From: Moraxellaceae bacterium
GTDB taxonomy: Bacteria; Pseudomonadota; Gammaproteobacteria; Burkholderiales; Rhodocyclaceae
Assembly: GCA_031119205.1 (NCBI GenBank)
Contig: JAVHYF010000008.1
Span: 62,001-126,000 of the forward strand
Direction of reading: 5' to 3'
Length of the DNA stretch: 64,000 nucleotides
A program made the translations under genes and the position numbers. This document shows positions 19-15,247 of this stretch, piece after piece. The number at the start of each line of letters is the position of its first letter. Positions within the stretch are counted from its first letter, which is position 1. The notes under the pieces are model-generated. The model searched no databases. It was not told the DNA's origin and worked only from the letters and a program-made list of their open reading frames with translations.

Positions 19-2010
19 GTGCGGATCGACGACCGGCAATGGGACGTGTCCGCCCACCGCAGCGCGCGCCACACGGTGCTGGAGCTGGAGCCGGCCACCA
101 GCGAGACGGGCAACCTGGCGCCCATCTATTCACTGGCGCGCACCTTCCTGCCCGAATTGCAGAACGCCGGCACGGTGCTGCAGCTGGCACGGCTGGCCAC
201 ACTGGAGCTGAAGCGGCTGACCGGCTTCGGCCGCTGCCTGCTGTACCGCTTCGACGACGAAGGTCACGGCGAGGTGCTGGCCGAGAGCGCCGACGAGGGC
301 TACGACCGCTACCTGGGGCACCGCTTCCCTGCCGCGGACATTCCGCAGCAGGCGCGCGCCCTGTACCTGCTGAACCGCTTCCGCCTGATTCCCGACGCCA
401 ACTACGAGCCGGTGCCGCTGATGTCGCTGGACCCGGCGCTGGGGCCGGCCGACGTCGACCTGTCGCAGGCCTTCCTGCGCAGCGTGTCGCCGGTGCACCT
501 GGAGTACATGCGCAACATGGGCACGCTGGCGTCGATGTCGGTGTCCATCGTCGTCGACGGCAAGCTGTGGGGGCTGATCTCCTGCCATGACCATGCGCCG
601 CGCAGCCTGACGCCGGAGTGCCGCAATGCCTGCGACCACCTCGGCCAGCTGGTGTCGCTGCAGATCGCCGCCAAGGAGGCGAATGCCGACGTGGCCGAGC
701 GACTGGAGCTGCGCAAGCTGACGCTGGAGATCGTTGCCCGGCTGGGCGACAGCGACGCCACCCTGCAGCGCATCGTCGGCGAATCCGCCCCGCTGCTGCG
801 GCTGGCAGGCGCCGCCGGGGCAGCCATCGTGCTGGACGACCAGGTGTGGTCGGTCGGCGAGGTGCCAGCGGACGAGCACATCCTGGAACTGGCGGGCTGG
901 ATCGTCGGGCTGGGGCAGGACGTGTACGAGAGCCACGAACTGGCGGCGCATTTCTCGCCGGCCGCGCAGTTCGGCAGCACACCGTCGGGCAAGCACATCG
1001 CCGGCGTGCTAGCGCTGTCCATCTCGCAGGTGCACCGCCACGCCATCCTGTGGTTCCGCCCGGAGATCGTGCAGACCGTGCGCTGGGCCGGCGACCCGCG
1101 CGCCAAGATCATCGACAACGGGCGCATCCAGCCGCGCCGCAGCTTCGACAGCTGGGCGGAACAGATCAAGGGGCGCAGCGAGCCGTGGAGCGTCGCGGAG
1201 ATTGCCGCCGCGCGCGAGCTGCGCGAGGCGCTGATCGGCATCGTGCTGCGCCGCGCGGAGGAAATGGCCGTGGTGGCGCAGGAGCTGGGGCGGCTGAACA
1301 AGGAACTGGAAGCCTTCTCCTACACCGTGTCGCACGACCTGCGCGCGCCGATGCGCCACATCACCGGCTACGTGGACCTCGTGCTGGACACCGACGAAGG
1401 CGCGCTGAGCGAACGCTCGCTGCGCTACCTCGGCCACGTGAAGGACGCGGCGCTCTTCGCCGGGCAGCTGGTGGACGCGCTGCTGGACTTCTCGCGCATG
1501 GGCCGCGCCGCCCTGAAGCGACGCAACGTGAACACCCAGCTGCTGGTGGACGACCTGGTGCGCGAAATCTCCCGCCAGGAGCGCGACCATCACATCGAAT
1601 GGGCCGTGGCCCGCGACCTGCCGGACATCGACGCCGACCCGCTGCTGCTGCAGATGGCGGTGCGCAACCTGGTGTCCAACGCGGTGAAGTACAGCCGCGG
1701 CGAGGACCGGAGCCGGATTGCCGTGACCGCTATGTCAAATGAGGAAGGCGACGGGCTGGAGGTCCGCGACAATGGCGTCGGTTTCGACATGAAGTATGTC
1801 GACAAGCTGTTCGGTGTGTTCCAGCGCCTGCACAAGTCCGAGGAATTCGAAGGCACGGGCATCGGCCTGGCCAACACCAAACGCATCATCGAACGCCATG
1901 GCGGCCAGGTCTGGGCGTACGGCGAACCGGGCAAGGGTGCCCGTTTCGGCTTCACCGTACCCCGGCGCACGACGGACGCCTTGGCATCTTCCGGAGTCCC
2001 CGATGCTTAA
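19..2010 (+). CDS. Bacteriophytochrome-type sensor histidine kinase (GAF-PHY-HisKA-HATPase), probably 5'-truncated by the window edge
   Basis: FPAADIPQQARALY, SPVHLEYMRNMGTLASMSVSI and GLISCHDH are phytochrome GAF signatures; SYTVSHDLRAPMRHI H-box; DNGVGFDMKY and GTGIGLANTKRII ATPase motifs. N-terminal PAS with chromophore Cys not visible. Confidence 0.88.
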   Translation: MRIDDRQWDVSAHRSARHTVLELEPATSETGNLAPIYSLARTFLPELQNAGTVLQLARLATLELKRLTGFGRCLLYRFDDEGHGEVLAESADEGYDRYLGHRFPAADIPQQARALYLLNRFRLIPDANYEPVPLMSLDPALGPADVDLSQAFLRSVSPVHLEYMRNMGTLASMSVSIVVDGKLWGLISCHDHAPRSLTPECRNACDHLGQLVSLQIAAKEANADVAERLELRKLTLEIVARLGDSDATLQRIVGESAPLLRLAGAAGAAIVLDDQVWSVGEVPADEHILELAGWIVGLGQDVYESHELAAHFSPAAQFGSTPSGKHIAGVLALSISQVHRHAILWFRPEIVQTVRWAGDPRAKIIDNGRIQPRRSFDSWAEQIKGRSEPWSVAEIAAARELREALIGIVLRRAEEMAVVAQELGRLNKELEAFSYTVSHDLRAPMRHITGYVDLVLDTDEGALSERSLRYLGHVKDAALFAGQLVDALLDFSRMGRAALKRRNVNTQLLVDDLVREISRQERDHHIEWAVARDLPDIDADPLLLQMAVRNLVSNAVKYSRGEDRSRIAVTAMSNEEGDGLEVRDNGVGFDMKYVDKLFGVFQRLHKSEEFEGTGIGLANTKRIIERHGGQVWAYGEPGKGARFGFTVPRRTTDALASSGVPDA

Positions 2011-9064: not shown

Positions 9065-10069
9065 ATGGATGCCCTGTCCGAACTGCTGCGCGCCGTCCGC
9101 CTGTCCGGTGCGATGTTCTTCAACGCGCACTGCGCCGCGCCCTGGTGCGTCGCCTCGCCGCCGTCGCAGCGCTTCGTGCGCTACGTGGCCAGCGAGAGCT
9201 GCCGCCTGATCGAGTTCCACTTCATCGCCGCGGGGCAGGCCTACATCCGCGTCGGCGGTGAAACCACGCCGCTGGCCGCCGGCGACATCGTGATGCTGCC
9301 GCATGGCGACGCCCACCACATGGGCAACGGGCTGAGCGCCGACATCATCGATGGCGAGGCCTCGGCCAGCGAGATGCTGACCGGCGCCGTCAAGCTGTCG
9401 AAGCTGGGCAGCGGTGACGGCGACAGCACGCGCCTGATCTGCGGCTACCTCGCCTGCGAGGCGCGCCTCATCCAGCCGCTGATCGCCGGCCTGCCGCGCG
9501 TGGTGCGGGTGAACATCCGCCACGACGCCTACGGCCGCGTGCTGGAGGAGATGATCCATCACGCCGTGGCGCAACTGGACGACGACGCACCGGGCAGCAA
9601 GGTCATCGGCGCGCGCCTGGCCGAAGTGCTGTTCGCCGAGAGCCTGCGCCGCTACCTGCTGCAGATGCCGCCGGGTGCAAGCAGCTGGCTGGCCGGCGCC
9701 GCCGACCCGGCAGTGGGCCGCGCTCTCGCCGCCCTGCACCAGGACCCGGCCCATGCGTGGACGCTGGACGAACTGGCGAAGCAAGCCGGCCTCGCCCGCT
9801 CCAGCCTCACCGAACGTTTCGCCCGCCACTTCGGACAGGGGCCCATGGGCTACCTGGCAGACTGGCGCCTGGAACTCGCCGCCGACGCCCTGCGCAGCAC
9901 CAGCCGCAGCGTGATGCAGATTGCATCCGAGGTCGGCTACGATTCCGAAGCCGCCTTCAACCGCGCTTTCAAGCGCCGCTTCGAACTGCCGCCGGGACGA
10001 TACCGGCTGCAGTGGCGGGAGGGACGGCCTGCGCCCCTTGCAACCGGAACCGGAGAGCACGCGCAATGA
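9065..10069 (+). CDS. AraC-family regulator with cupin_6-type N-terminus
   Basis: WTLDELAKQAGLARSSLTERFARHFGQGPMGYLADWRLELA...IASEVGYDSEAAFNRAFKRRF. Confidence 0.88.
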   Translation: MDALSELLRAVRLSGAMFFNAHCAAPWCVASPPSQRFVRYVASESCRLIEFHFIAAGQAYIRVGGETTPLAAGDIVMLPHGDAHHMGNGLSADIIDGEASASEMLTGAVKLSKLGSGDGDSTRLICGYLACEARLIQPLIAGLPRVVRVNIRHDAYGRVLEEMIHHAVAQLDDDAPGSKVIGARLAEVLFAESLRRYLLQMPPGASSWLAGAADPAVGRALAALHQDPAHAWTLDELAKQAGLARSSLTERFARHFGQGPMGYLADWRLELAADALRSTSRSVMQIASEVGYDSEAAFNRAFKRRFELPPGRYRLQWREGRPAPLATGTGEHAQ

Positions 10070-12083: not shown

Positions 12084-13817
12084 TCACATCAGCCGCGGCA
12101 GGCACAGGGCCAGCACCAGCAGCACCGCCAGCAGCAGGGACAGCACCTTCCAGAACAGCAGCGGATTGCGCTCGATCAGAGGGGTGTGGCGCGGCCCCAG
12201 CGCGGTGCTGCCGGGGTGGCGCAGGTCGTAGGTGAATTCGGAGAGCTCGGCGTAGCGCTTGTACGGGTCGGGGTGCAGGGCCTTGCGCAGCACTTCGTCC
12301 ACCCACGCGGGGATGTCGCGCTCGTCGGACAGCGCGCTGTCGTAGCGCAGACGTGACTGTTCAGCGCGGGTGCGCGCGGCGGCCACGCGCGTGCCGTAGG
12401 GCAGTCGGCCGGTGAGCAGCTGGTAGGCGATGACGGCCAGCGAGAAGATGTCGCTGCGCGCGTCGCCCTCCTCGCCCAGGAAGAGTTCCGGCGCGGCGTA
12501 CTGCGCGGTGGCCAGCATCGCGCTGGCCTCGGTGGGCGCGGCGGCTTCCATGATGCCGGCGACGCGGGTGGAGCCGAAGTCGATGATCTTGAGCGTGCCG
12601 GCGGCGTCCACCATCACATTGGGCGGACGCAGGTCGCGATGCACCATCTCCATGCGGTGGAAGGCCTGCAGGCCGGCGGCGATCTGGTCGACGATGTCGC
12701 GCACCGCGTTGAGCGAAGGGCGCGGGTGGTCGGTCATCCACTGCGCGAGGCTGTGGCCTTCCACGTACTCCATGACGACATACAGGTAGCCGCGTTTACG
12801 GGCCTGGCCGCGCGGCTTCAGCACATGGGCGTTGTCGATGCGGCGTGCCACCCACTCTTCGAGCAGGAAGCGTTCGACGCTGCCGGGGTCTTCCTGCAGT
12901 TCAGTGGCCAGCGTCTTGATGACGACGCGCTCGCCGCTGTCATTGTCGGTGGCGAGGTAGAGGTGGCTGCGGGCGCTGTGGTGCAGTTCGCGTTCGATGC
13001 GGTAGCCGTCGAAGCTCATGCGTGCCTGCAGCAGCGGCGGGAAAGGCAGGCCGGATAGATGCTGGTAGAGCGCGTCCGCCGAGTGGCCGGGCAGGCTGTC
13101 CACACGCAGGATCTGCACGCTGAGGTTGTCGGCGCTGTCGCGCGCGAAGGCCTCTTCCACGATGAGGCGGGCCGCGTGATCGAGGTCGCCGGCATGCTCG
13201 TGGATGATGCGCGCGGCCGTGCGTGGCTCGATGTGCTCATACACGCCGTCGGTGGCGAGCAGCAAGATGTCACCCTCATCCAGCGTCAGCGTGCGGTAGT
13301 CGATCTCCAGCTCACGGCTGGCGCCGAGCGCGCGGCCGAGGTAGCTCTGGCCACCACCGACATGCACGCGGTGATCCTCGGTGAGCTGTTCCAGCGATTG
13401 CTCGTGCACGCGGTAGATGCGGGTGTCGCCGACGTGCAGCAGGTGCGCGCTACGCCCCTTCACCACCACGGCGCTGAAGGTGCACACGTAGCCGCGGTCG
13501 CGGTCGAAGCGGTACTCGCTGCGCTGGGTCTGGGCGAACAGCCAGGAGTTGGTGGCCGCCAGTACGCGATGTGCAGCGGTCTTCACCGACCAGGCGTCCG
13601 AGGTGCAGTAGTAGTCGTCGAGGAAGCCACGCACCGCGAATCCGCTGGCGACCTGGCTCACCCCGCTGCTGCTGATGCCATCGGCAAGTGCCAGCGCAAC
13701 GCCCTTGCTGGCGAGCTGTGTGCCGGTGGGCACGCAGGCACCGTGGAAATCCTGGTTGAGCGGCTTGCGTCCCTTGTCGGAATGCTGGCCGATGCTGACA
13801 CGCAGCTCAGCGGACAT
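12084..13817 (-). CDS. Bifunctional PP2C-type phosphatase / Ser-Thr protein kinase with C-terminal TM
   Basis: PP2C: LNQDFHG, LALADGISSSG, LLHVGDTRIYRV, DGVYEHI; kinase: VVIKTL, MVHRDLRPPNVM, KIIDFGSTRV; C-terminal FWKVLSLLLAVLLVLALCL. Confidence 0.9.
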   Translation of the reverse strand: MSAELRVSIGQHSDKGRKPLNQDFHGACVPTGTQLASKGVALALADGISSSGVSQVASGFAVRGFLDDYYCTSDAWSVKTAAHRVLAATNSWLFAQTQRSEYRFDRDRGYVCTFSAVVVKGRSAHLLHVGDTRIYRVHEQSLEQLTEDHRVHVGGGQSYLGRALGASRELEIDYRTLTLDEGDILLLATDGVYEHIEPRTAARIIHEHAGDLDHAARLIVEEAFARDSADNLSVQILRVDSLPGHSADALYQHLSGLPFPPLLQARMSFDGYRIERELHHSARSHLYLATDNDSGERVVIKTLATELQEDPGSVERFLLEEWVARRIDNAHVLKPRGQARKRGYLYVVMEYVEGHSLAQWMTDHPRPSLNAVRDIVDQIAAGLQAFHRMEMVHRDLRPPNVMVDAAGTLKIIDFGSTRVAGIMEAAAPTEASAMLATAQYAAPELFLGEEGDARSDIFSLAVIAYQLLTGRLPYGTRVAAARTRAEQSRLRYDSALSDERDIPAWVDEVLRKALHPDPYKRYAELSEFTYDLRHPGSTALGPRHTPLIERNPLLFWKVLSLLLAVLLVLALCLPRLM

Positions 13818-13877
13818 GCGCTCTCCTGTCTGCACGCATCAAGGCAGGCGTGAAGAAAATCGTAAGCTCGGGCGAAG

Positions 13878-13912
13878 AAAAAAAGGCCCCGCTTCCGCTG
13901 GAAGCCGGGGCC
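13878..13912 (-). terminator. Rho-independent terminator between FNT and kinase/phosphatase genes
   Basis: Minus-strand GGCCCC-g-GCTTCC-AGC-GGAAGC-GGGGCC followed by TTTTTTT. Confidence 0.9.
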
Positions 13913-14041: not shown

Positions 14042-14854
14042 TCAGGCAGCCGCGCGGCGCGGTGCCGTGCGGGCATGCGTGGCGTACAGCGTGAGGCCGG
14101 TGAAGGCCAAGCCGCCGACGAGGTTGCCGAGCACGGTGGGGATCTCGTTCCAGATCAGGTAGTCCATGATCGTGAAGTGCGCGCCCAGCAGCAGGCCGGA
14201 CGGGAACAGGAACATGTTGACGATGGAGTGCTCGAACACCATGTAGAAGAACAGCATGATCGGCATCCACATGGCGATCACCTTGCCGCTGACATGGGTA
14301 GAGATCATGGCGCCGACCACGCCGGCCGACACCATCCAGTTGCACAGCATGCCGCGCACGAACAGCGTCAGCATGCCGGCGGCACCGTACTCCTTGTAGC
14401 CCAGCGTGCGGCTCTCACCAACGATGCCGATGGCCTTGCCCACCGCATTCGGTTCCGTGGAGAAGCCGTTGGTGGTGTAGATCGCCATCATGATGGCGAC
14501 GGTGAAGGCGCCCAGGAAGTTGCCGGTGAACACCAGGCCCCAGTTGCGCAGCACGCCACCGATGGTGACGCCCGGGCGCTTGTCGATCAGCGCCAGCGGC
14601 GCCAGCACGAACACGCCGGTGAGCAGGTCGAAGCCGAACAGGTACAGCATGACGAAGCCCACCGGGAACAGCACGGCGCCCAGCAGCGGCTGGCCGGTCT
14701 GCACGTTGATGGTGACCGCGAACCAGGCGGCCAGCGCGAGGATGGCGCCGGCCATGAAGGCGCGGATCACGGTGTCGCGCGTCGACATGAAGATCTTCGC
14801 CTCGCCGGCGTCGATCATCTTTGTTACGAATTCCGAGGGTGCCAGGTAGGCCAT
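14042..14854 (-). CDS. Formate/nitrite transporter (FNT) family channel
   Basis: Polytopic; LFGFDLLTGVFVLAPLAL, NWGLVFTGNFLGAF, RGMLCNWMVSAGVVGA, MFFYMVFEHSIVNMFLFPSG-type FNT motifs. Confidence 0.9.
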   Translation of the reverse strand: MAYLAPSEFVTKMIDAGEAKIFMSTRDTVIRAFMAGAILALAAWFAVTINVQTGQPLLGAVLFPVGFVMLYLFGFDLLTGVFVLAPLALIDKRPGVTIGGVLRNWGLVFTGNFLGAFTVAIMMAIYTTNGFSTEPNAVGKAIGIVGESRTLGYKEYGAAGMLTLFVRGMLCNWMVSAGVVGAMISTHVSGKVIAMWMPIMLFFYMVFEHSIVNMFLFPSGLLLGAHFTIMDYLIWNEIPTVLGNLVGGLAFTGLTLYATHARTAPRRAAA

Positions 14855-14894
14855 GTTTGTCGTCCCGATGTCTTGTGTGGTGGCCGTGACCGGC

Positions 14895-14961
14895 CCAAAA
14901 ACAAAATGGCGCCCATTCCTGCCGCCACCCGGGAAAGGGAGGAAACAGGAATGGACGCCAT
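14895..14961 (-). terminator. Intrinsic terminator/attenuator in the FNT leader
   Basis: Minus strand ATGGCGTCCATTCCTG - loop - CAGGAATGGGCGCCAT (16 bp stem, one G-U) followed by TTTTGTTTTTG, about 40 nt upstream of the FNT ATG. Confidence 0.9.
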
Positions 14962-15006
14962 CATCCAGTTGAATCCGACGGGCTGTGCTTTGTCTCGCCG
15001 CCCGCT

Positions 15007-15028
15007 GTCAGGCCACCGTTAGCCTGAC
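15007..15028 (-). promoter_or_regulatory. Candidate ANTAR-binding hexaloop hairpin
   Basis: Minus strand GTCAGGC-U-[AACGGU]-G-GCCUGAC: 7 bp stem plus U-G, hexaloop with A at position 1 and G at position 4. Confidence 0.7.
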
Positions 15029-15041
15029 GTGGCGTTTAGCC

Positions 15042-15057
15042 AGCAGGTTCTGTGCCA
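15042..15057 (-). promoter_or_regulatory. Candidate sigma54 promoter (-24/-12)
   Basis: Minus strand TGGCACAGAACCTGCT, GG-N10-GC spacing, close to TGGCAC-N5-TTGCW. Confidence 0.75.
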
Positions 15058-15247
15058 CTTGCGTACTGCCTCACCGTGCATCGACGAAAGCGGCACCGGC
15101 GCTGGAGCTGCGTGAAATTTCAGGAGCCACGAACCTTGCAGGCAGCAACGCAGGGCGCCCCGCGCTGGTGCCCTTGCAGCGCAACACTGATCGGCTTTGG
15201 TGCGCGTGCTGGTCAGACCAGCACGGGTGTGCACCCGGTTGTGCGTA

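Follow-up and report, generated by a model that had tools for sequence, protein, structure and literature searches.

In the window (the whole 64-kb stretch of DNA analyzed), the leader of a formate/nitrite channel (FNT) gene is very probably a transcription attenuator of the NasR type, responsive to nitrate and worked by the NIT-ANTAR protein encoded next to it; we infer both the nitrate response and the identity of the acting ANTAR protein. The two genes are separated by a σ54-type promoter, a hexaloop hairpin (P1), a middle hairpin, a second hairpin (P2) and an intrinsic terminator (Table 1). A NasR-type attenuation switch had been proposed in the original prediction, and it is now supported by the NIT and ANTAR domains of the protein, a covariance-model search, the conserved order of the leader elements and covariation in the hairpins.

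Table 1. Features of the FNT leader and its neighbors (coordinates within the window).
Feature	Coordinates	Strand	Evidence and remarks
NIT-ANTAR (NasR-like) regulator gene, 409 aa	15248–16477	−	PF08376 and PF03861; NasR structure 4akk, E 6e-43
Perfect palindrome CGTGCTGGTC-T-GACCAGCACG	15205–15225	−	Inverted-repeat search; role putative
σ54-type (−24/−12) promoter TGGCACAGAACCTGCT	15042–15057	−	Sequence, position, orthologous leaders
P1 hexaloop hairpin GUCAGGCU[AACGGU]GGCCUGAC	15007–15028	−	A1, G4; U-G closing pair; covariation in 15 leaders
Middle (spacer) hairpin GCGGGC...GCCCGU between P1 and P2	14978–15005	−	Folding; linkers of relatives fold better than shuffles
P2 hairpin UGGAU[GAUGGC]GUCCA	14952–14967	−	G1, G4; antiterminator half; homologous position in L009–L013, L054–L057
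Intrinsic terminator stem-loop	14906–14961	−	−40.9 kcal/mol; inverted repeat; 14961–14952 common to P2
Terminator T-run	14895–14905	−	Sequence
FNT formate/nitrite channel gene, 270 aa	14042–14854	−	PF01226, E 6.4e-61; ATG at 14854
Intrinsic terminator between FNT and kinase gene	13881–13912	−	−23.3 kcal/mol stem and T-run
PP2C phosphatase and Ser/Thr kinase fusion gene	12084–13835	−	PF13672 and PF00069; likely start ATG 13817

Promoter of the FNT leader

The pattern TGGCACN6TGCW had a single exact match in the 64-kb window, TGGCACAGAACCTGCT, with 0.60 expected. Taken alone this match would be weak; it is backed by its position and by orthologous leaders, in which TGGCA(C/T)-N6-TGC(T/A) occupies the equivalent place. 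It has GG at −24 and GC at −12 within consensus flanks, and the genome encodes RpoN (PF04552, E 2e-67). The predicted transcription start lies near 15031, and the leader presumably depends on σ54 and NtrC. The perfect palindrome further upstream is a candidate binding site of an NtrC-like enhancer-binding protein or, alternatively, a candidate 3′ hairpin of the NIT-ANTAR gene. Palindromes of the type TTGCACTGCA(G/A)(C/T)AGTGCG recur between NIT-ANTAR and nrtA genes, upstream of a σ54-like site, in loci L018, L026–L028, L050 and L051; these are also candidate NtrC-like enhancer sites.

Hairpins and terminator

Two hairpins of the leader resemble targets of ANTAR domains. P1 has a stem of at least 3 bp and a six-base loop with A1 and G4; its hexaloop form was predicted at about −12.5 kcal/mol, and its pattern occurred only once in the window even with up to 2 mismatches allowed. 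P2 shares the minimum stem length, the loop size and G4, but position 1 of its loop is G instead of the A of ANTAR targets. A 3-bp hairpin with A1 and G4 located just upstream, UCA[ACUGGA]UGA, was considered as P2 and dropped, the homologous position in relatives being GGAY[RAYGGC]GUCC.

The terminator stem-loop was missed by a simple terminator scan because its apical region is interrupted, and the scan reported the P2 hairpin (14967–14952) in its place. P2 and the terminator are mutually exclusive because both use nucleotides 14961–14952. In predicted folds, RNA ending at P2 formed three hairpins (P1, middle and P2), and as the chain grew P2 gave way to the terminator stem when the 3′ arm of the latter emerged. 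Exclusion of this kind is also found in eut and nas leaders (PMC3369931, PMC7496416). The leader as a whole (15035–14885) was predicted at −78.3 kcal/mol compared to −56.4 kcal/mol in shuffled sequences (z = −4.98).

All elements named in the original prediction were recovered: a GG-N10-GC σ54 promoter at 15057–15042 of the minus strand, whose core is kept in orthologs; an A1/G4 hexaloop hairpin at 15028–15007, on which sequence and predicted fold agree; a terminator stem with T-run at 14961–14895; the FNT start codon after this terminator; and an upstream gene for a NIT-ANTAR protein, both domains of which were found by profile searches. The folding analysis it had proposed gave a leader far more stable than shuffles and a switch between P2 and the terminator. 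Its statement that there was no clear second hexaloop hairpin has to be revised, as P2 is such a hairpin with G1 instead of A1.

A probable folded spacer between P1 and P2

The distance between P1 and P2 in the window is 39 nt, of which ∼11 nt are left unpaired when the middle hairpin folds. Published linkers are shorter: 5–12 nt in eut leaders (PMC3369931) and 2–25 nt in actinobacteria (PMC8164766), so that the FNT leader falls outside the 2–25 nt range used to define ANTAR targets. EutV did not work with a 14-nt linker or with one extended by 20 nt (PMC3369931, PMC8934654), the 20-nt extension abolishing its antitermination in vitro (PMC8934654).

Long linkers were common to FNT leaders, which had 26–50 nt between the P1 and P2 cores, including a hairpin whose sequence was lineage-specific, and 4–13 nt left unpaired. 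Linkers sampled once per lineage folded more stably than their dinucleotide-shuffled versions (mean z −1.86, n = 11, Stouffer −6.2, the lineages being not fully independent). Compensating changes were present in the middle hairpin of related leaders: most nrtA leaders have GUUCG/CGAAC, for example, where L026 has AUCCG/CGGAU. A gammaproteobacterial NIT-ANTAR leader (L141) had 43 nt with a similar hairpin, and two others had 15 nt. The likeliest role of the middle hairpin would be that of a spacer that keeps both loops close enough for a single ANTAR dimer to reach.

Conservation of the leader in other organisms

We gathered NIT-ANTAR relatives from the family and found five loci (L009–L013) in which the NIT-ANTAR gene is followed by FNT; the σ54 site, P1, P2 and terminator preceded FNT in all five, and the kinase frame was visible in L009, L010, L012 and L013. 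In most other NIT-ANTAR relatives the gene was followed by nrtABC or nirB, generally with a leader of the same kind. The same leader was also detected before FNT in L054–L057, L109, L110, L117 and L124. An alignment scan for FNT over named genomes yielded 80 loci. Under a strict rule, two A1/G4 hexaloops and a T-run were present in 7 of these 80 upstream regions, compared to 0.06 in shuffled sequence: Polaromonas (L054–L056), Methylobacillus (L109), Pseudomonas (L117, L124) and Methylomonas (L123). At least one A1/G4 hexaloop hairpin was found in 41 of the 80 (9.9 expected). On visual inspection, the leaders of Ramlibacter (L057) and Verrucomicrobiaceae (L110) also fit. Many Bradyrhizobium FNT loci had a σ54-like site and one hexaloop hairpin, with P2 and terminator not established, and the betaproteobacterial FNT loci L058–L061 had no such leader.

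Multiple alignment of 15 leaders provided additional support for the structure. In these rows, which were cut and registered by hand and therefore lean somewhat towards the structure, 92.6% of P1/P2 cells were paired, 8 of 10 pairs had changed on both sides, and 19 cells carried double changes, where shuffles gave 4.6 and slid controls no more than 5. The closing pair was always C-G or U-G, in line with the preference for C:G seen in SELEX with NasR (PMC7496416). Position 1 of the P2 loop was G in the window, L009, L010 and L030, and A in L011–L013, L054–L057, L109, L110, L117 and L124. A1 is needed for full EutV activity, its replacement having lowered induction (PMC3369931). In the crystal structure, however, A1 is not contacted directly (PMC8934654), and for this reason G1 in P2 may be tolerated.

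Ten nrtA/nirB-type leaders of other genera were used to build a covariance model, with FNT leaders excluded from training. Its best match in the 64-kb window was 15028–14949 of the minus strand (24.4 bits, E 8e-4), a modest score for which the coincidence with an independently named site carries more weight. A second match (1865–1946, plus strand, 19.1 bits) was inside a phytochrome-like histidine kinase gene and was rejected. Among 44 other sources, the same model detected the FNT leaders of L054, L011, L013, L056, L117, L057, L124, L012 and L110 at E ≤ 0.06. A genome-wide run, in which 150 of 5374 candidates were scored, did not recover the known site itself, and Rfam at the gathering threshold gave no match within the window. 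Both comparisons suggested along with the original prediction came out in its favor: the FNT leader ranked first in the window in the covariance-model search, and promoter, hexaloop hairpins and terminator are kept, with covariation, in orthologous FNT loci.

FNT and its PP2C-kinase partner

The FNT gene is followed by a gene for a fusion of a PP2C phosphatase and a Ser/Thr kinase. A PP2C-kinase frame was present 3′ of FNT in 77 of the 80 FNT loci, which included alpha-, beta- and gammaproteobacteria and Verrucomicrobia. The earlier view of FNT as a lone target is therefore only partly upheld: a terminator (13912–13881) cuts off the kinase gene in the window, but in relatives FNT and the kinase form a conserved pair. 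Terminator-like hairpins between the two genes were also read by eye in L013, L054, L057–L060 and L110. Given this terminator, transcripts here can contain FNT alone, and expression of the kinase is probably lower or separate; the terminator possibly sets a high ratio of channel to kinase. Conservation of the gene pair suggests that the kinase may act on the channel or on nitrite assimilation.

A second PP2C-kinase gene of the same genome belongs to a nirB-nirD-nasA-kinase cluster (C7, L045 6112–12166), which has a σ54-like site and no leader. The FNT of the window was found in 1 of 8 genomes of the genus, the other 7 having only an FNT of ∼30% identity; this distribution suggests sporadic loss or horizontal gain.

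The NIT-ANTAR protein and other regulators

In the protein encoded upstream of FNT, a NIT domain (PF08376, residues 36–276, E 1.1e-47) is fused to an ANTAR domain (PF03861, residues 345–394, E 4.9e-21), the architecture that defines NasR-type regulators. Of the Klebsiella NasR residues required for responding to nitrate and for binding RNA, E175, R340, R366 and N373 are kept and W362 is replaced with His; R176 is kept as well. W362 of NasR appears to be the counterpart of EutV Tyr164, the residue stacked on loop G4 (PMC8934654). His at this position was observed only in the window protein and in L030, both of whose leaders have the GAUGGC (G1) P2 loop; L030 also has Gly at R340. A protein-RNA co-change is possible, yet L009 and L010 combine G1 with Tyr.

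The genome also has a second ANTAR protein, NasT, whose gene lies beside nrtABC (C64, in L003), and it is conceivable, if unlikely, that NasT works this attenuator, alone or together with the NIT-ANTAR protein, which would then not be the sole regulator. In Verrucomicrobia and Pseudomonas genomes with this FNT leader, only short, NasT-sized ANTAR frames were found. On the other hand, the NIT-ANTAR gene is directly upstream of the leader both here and in L009–L013, and the leader that accompanies nasT in the same genome looks different. This nrtA leader (L003, about 9500–9830) has a σ54-like site, P1 (CGGGC[AACGGC]GCCCG), P2 (GAC[AGAGGC]GUC) and an overlapping terminator, with a classic short linker of 5 nt; the difference in linkers hints at separate ANTAR partners for the two leaders. 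Two nirB genes and one other, distant FNT were also present in the genome. Upstream of the C7 nirB copy, a σ54-like site and no leader were found; upstream of the C67 copy (L037) a terminator was not clearly found. The latter region has a hexaloop-like hairpin, CCGCU[GAUGAC]GGCGG, with G1 and G4.

Another reading is that the leader is decayed or constitutive, part of a degenerating system in which the terminator merely lowers FNT expression. G1 in P2, the U-G closing pairs and His in the ANTAR domain could be signs of such decay, as could the recurrence of His and the GAUGGC loop in L030 together with Gly at R340, and none of the other 7 genomes searched within the genus has the locus. However, the remaining elements are intact, the NIT-ANTAR frame is of full length and retains the other key residues, and L009 and L010 have G1 with Tyr kept, so that G1 recurs in functional-looking loci; we consider decay improbable. 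A third reading, in which the NIT-ANTAR transcript ends at this terminator and the hairpins have no part in controlling FNT, is very improbable: the leader does lie between two codirectional genes, but the terminator is ∼290 nt past the NIT-ANTAR stop and ∼50 nt before the FNT ATG, and the σ54-P1-P2-terminator series precedes FNT in L054–L057, where no NIT-ANTAR gene was found within ∼8 kb upstream.

Discussion

The FNT leader is best explained as acting like a NasR leader, and we class it as a variant because P2 lacks A1 and the linker is not short. When nitrogen is short, σ54 polymerase, probably activated by NtrC, would start near 15031. Without nitrate or nitrite, the nascent RNA would form the terminator stem and transcription would end before FNT. 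With nitrate or nitrite present, the ANTAR domain of the NIT-ANTAR protein would be freed and a dimer would grip P1 and P2; P2 being held, the 5′ arm of the terminator (14961–14952) would be occupied, the terminator blocked, and transcription would read through into FNT. The middle hairpin would reduce the spacer to a length at which one dimer can reach both loops. G1 in P2, the 39-nt spacer, His at the W362 position, the modest covariance-model score and the presence of NasT speak against this mechanism.

In Klebsiella, nasF is σ54-dependent, and the NasR/nasF system of K. oxytoca shares with the present locus a NIT-ANTAR protein and a hexaloop-hairpin leader upstream of an intrinsic terminator. 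Its target is the nasFEDCBA operon, whereas the target here is an FNT channel, whose gene usually has a PP2C-kinase gene as partner; G1 in the P2 loop and a 39-nt spacer with its own hairpin are further features of our leader. NasR binds a two-hairpin RNA in a nitrate/nitrite-dependent manner (PMC7496416). The dual-hexaloop leaders of EutV/eut (PMC3369931) also have P1 and P2, G4 in both loops and a P2 that overlaps the terminator. However, both eut loops have A1, the linker is 5–12 nt, and the regulator is a two-component system, in contrast to the one-component nitrate sensor of the window. ANTAR antitermination of nitrate/nitrite genes is also known from the NasT-controlled leaders of Paracoccus nasABGHC (PMC5424462) and Bradyrhizobium nosR/nirA (PMC6759348). 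Paracoccus nasH is a nitrite transporter within an ANTAR-controlled operon (PMC5424462); there the transporter gene is internal, the leader being that of a nitrate transporter and NasS-NasT the regulator, whereas FNT in the window has a leader of its own and comes first after it. The nrtA leader of the same genome has a σ54-type promoter, P1, P2 and overlapping terminator in common with the FNT leader, and differs in its 5-nt linker, the lack of a middle hairpin and its location beside nasT.

FNT as an ANTAR target is not new in kind, as nitrite transporters were already named among the genes behind ANTAR RNAs (Ramesh et al. 2012, PMC3369931). The apparent novelties are the folded spacer, the G1 loop, and the FNT-kinase pair as a direct σ54/ANTAR target; in the openly searchable literature, we found no description of a hairpin inside an ANTAR linker or of an FNT-kinase pair. 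A broader proposal, which we consider about as likely as not, is that many proteobacterial NIT-ANTAR/NasT leaders form a three-hairpin class in which a variable folded spacer resets the distance between hexaloops, a class missed by published linker rules and covariance models, and that the σ54-driven FNT-kinase module is a widespread, overlooked target. If true, searches for short-linker motifs under-count the ANTAR targets of proteobacteria. Leaders of ∼40–50 nt spacing are conserved although such spacing abolishes EutV function, the third hairpin apparently taking up the slack, and they thus provide a natural test of the ANTAR spacing rule; a genome with both linker forms (5 nt before nrtA, 39 nt before FNT) allows the comparison to be made with the same proteins. 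If the proposed mechanism is true, the channel gene becomes the first, direct target of a nitrate-sensing antiterminator.
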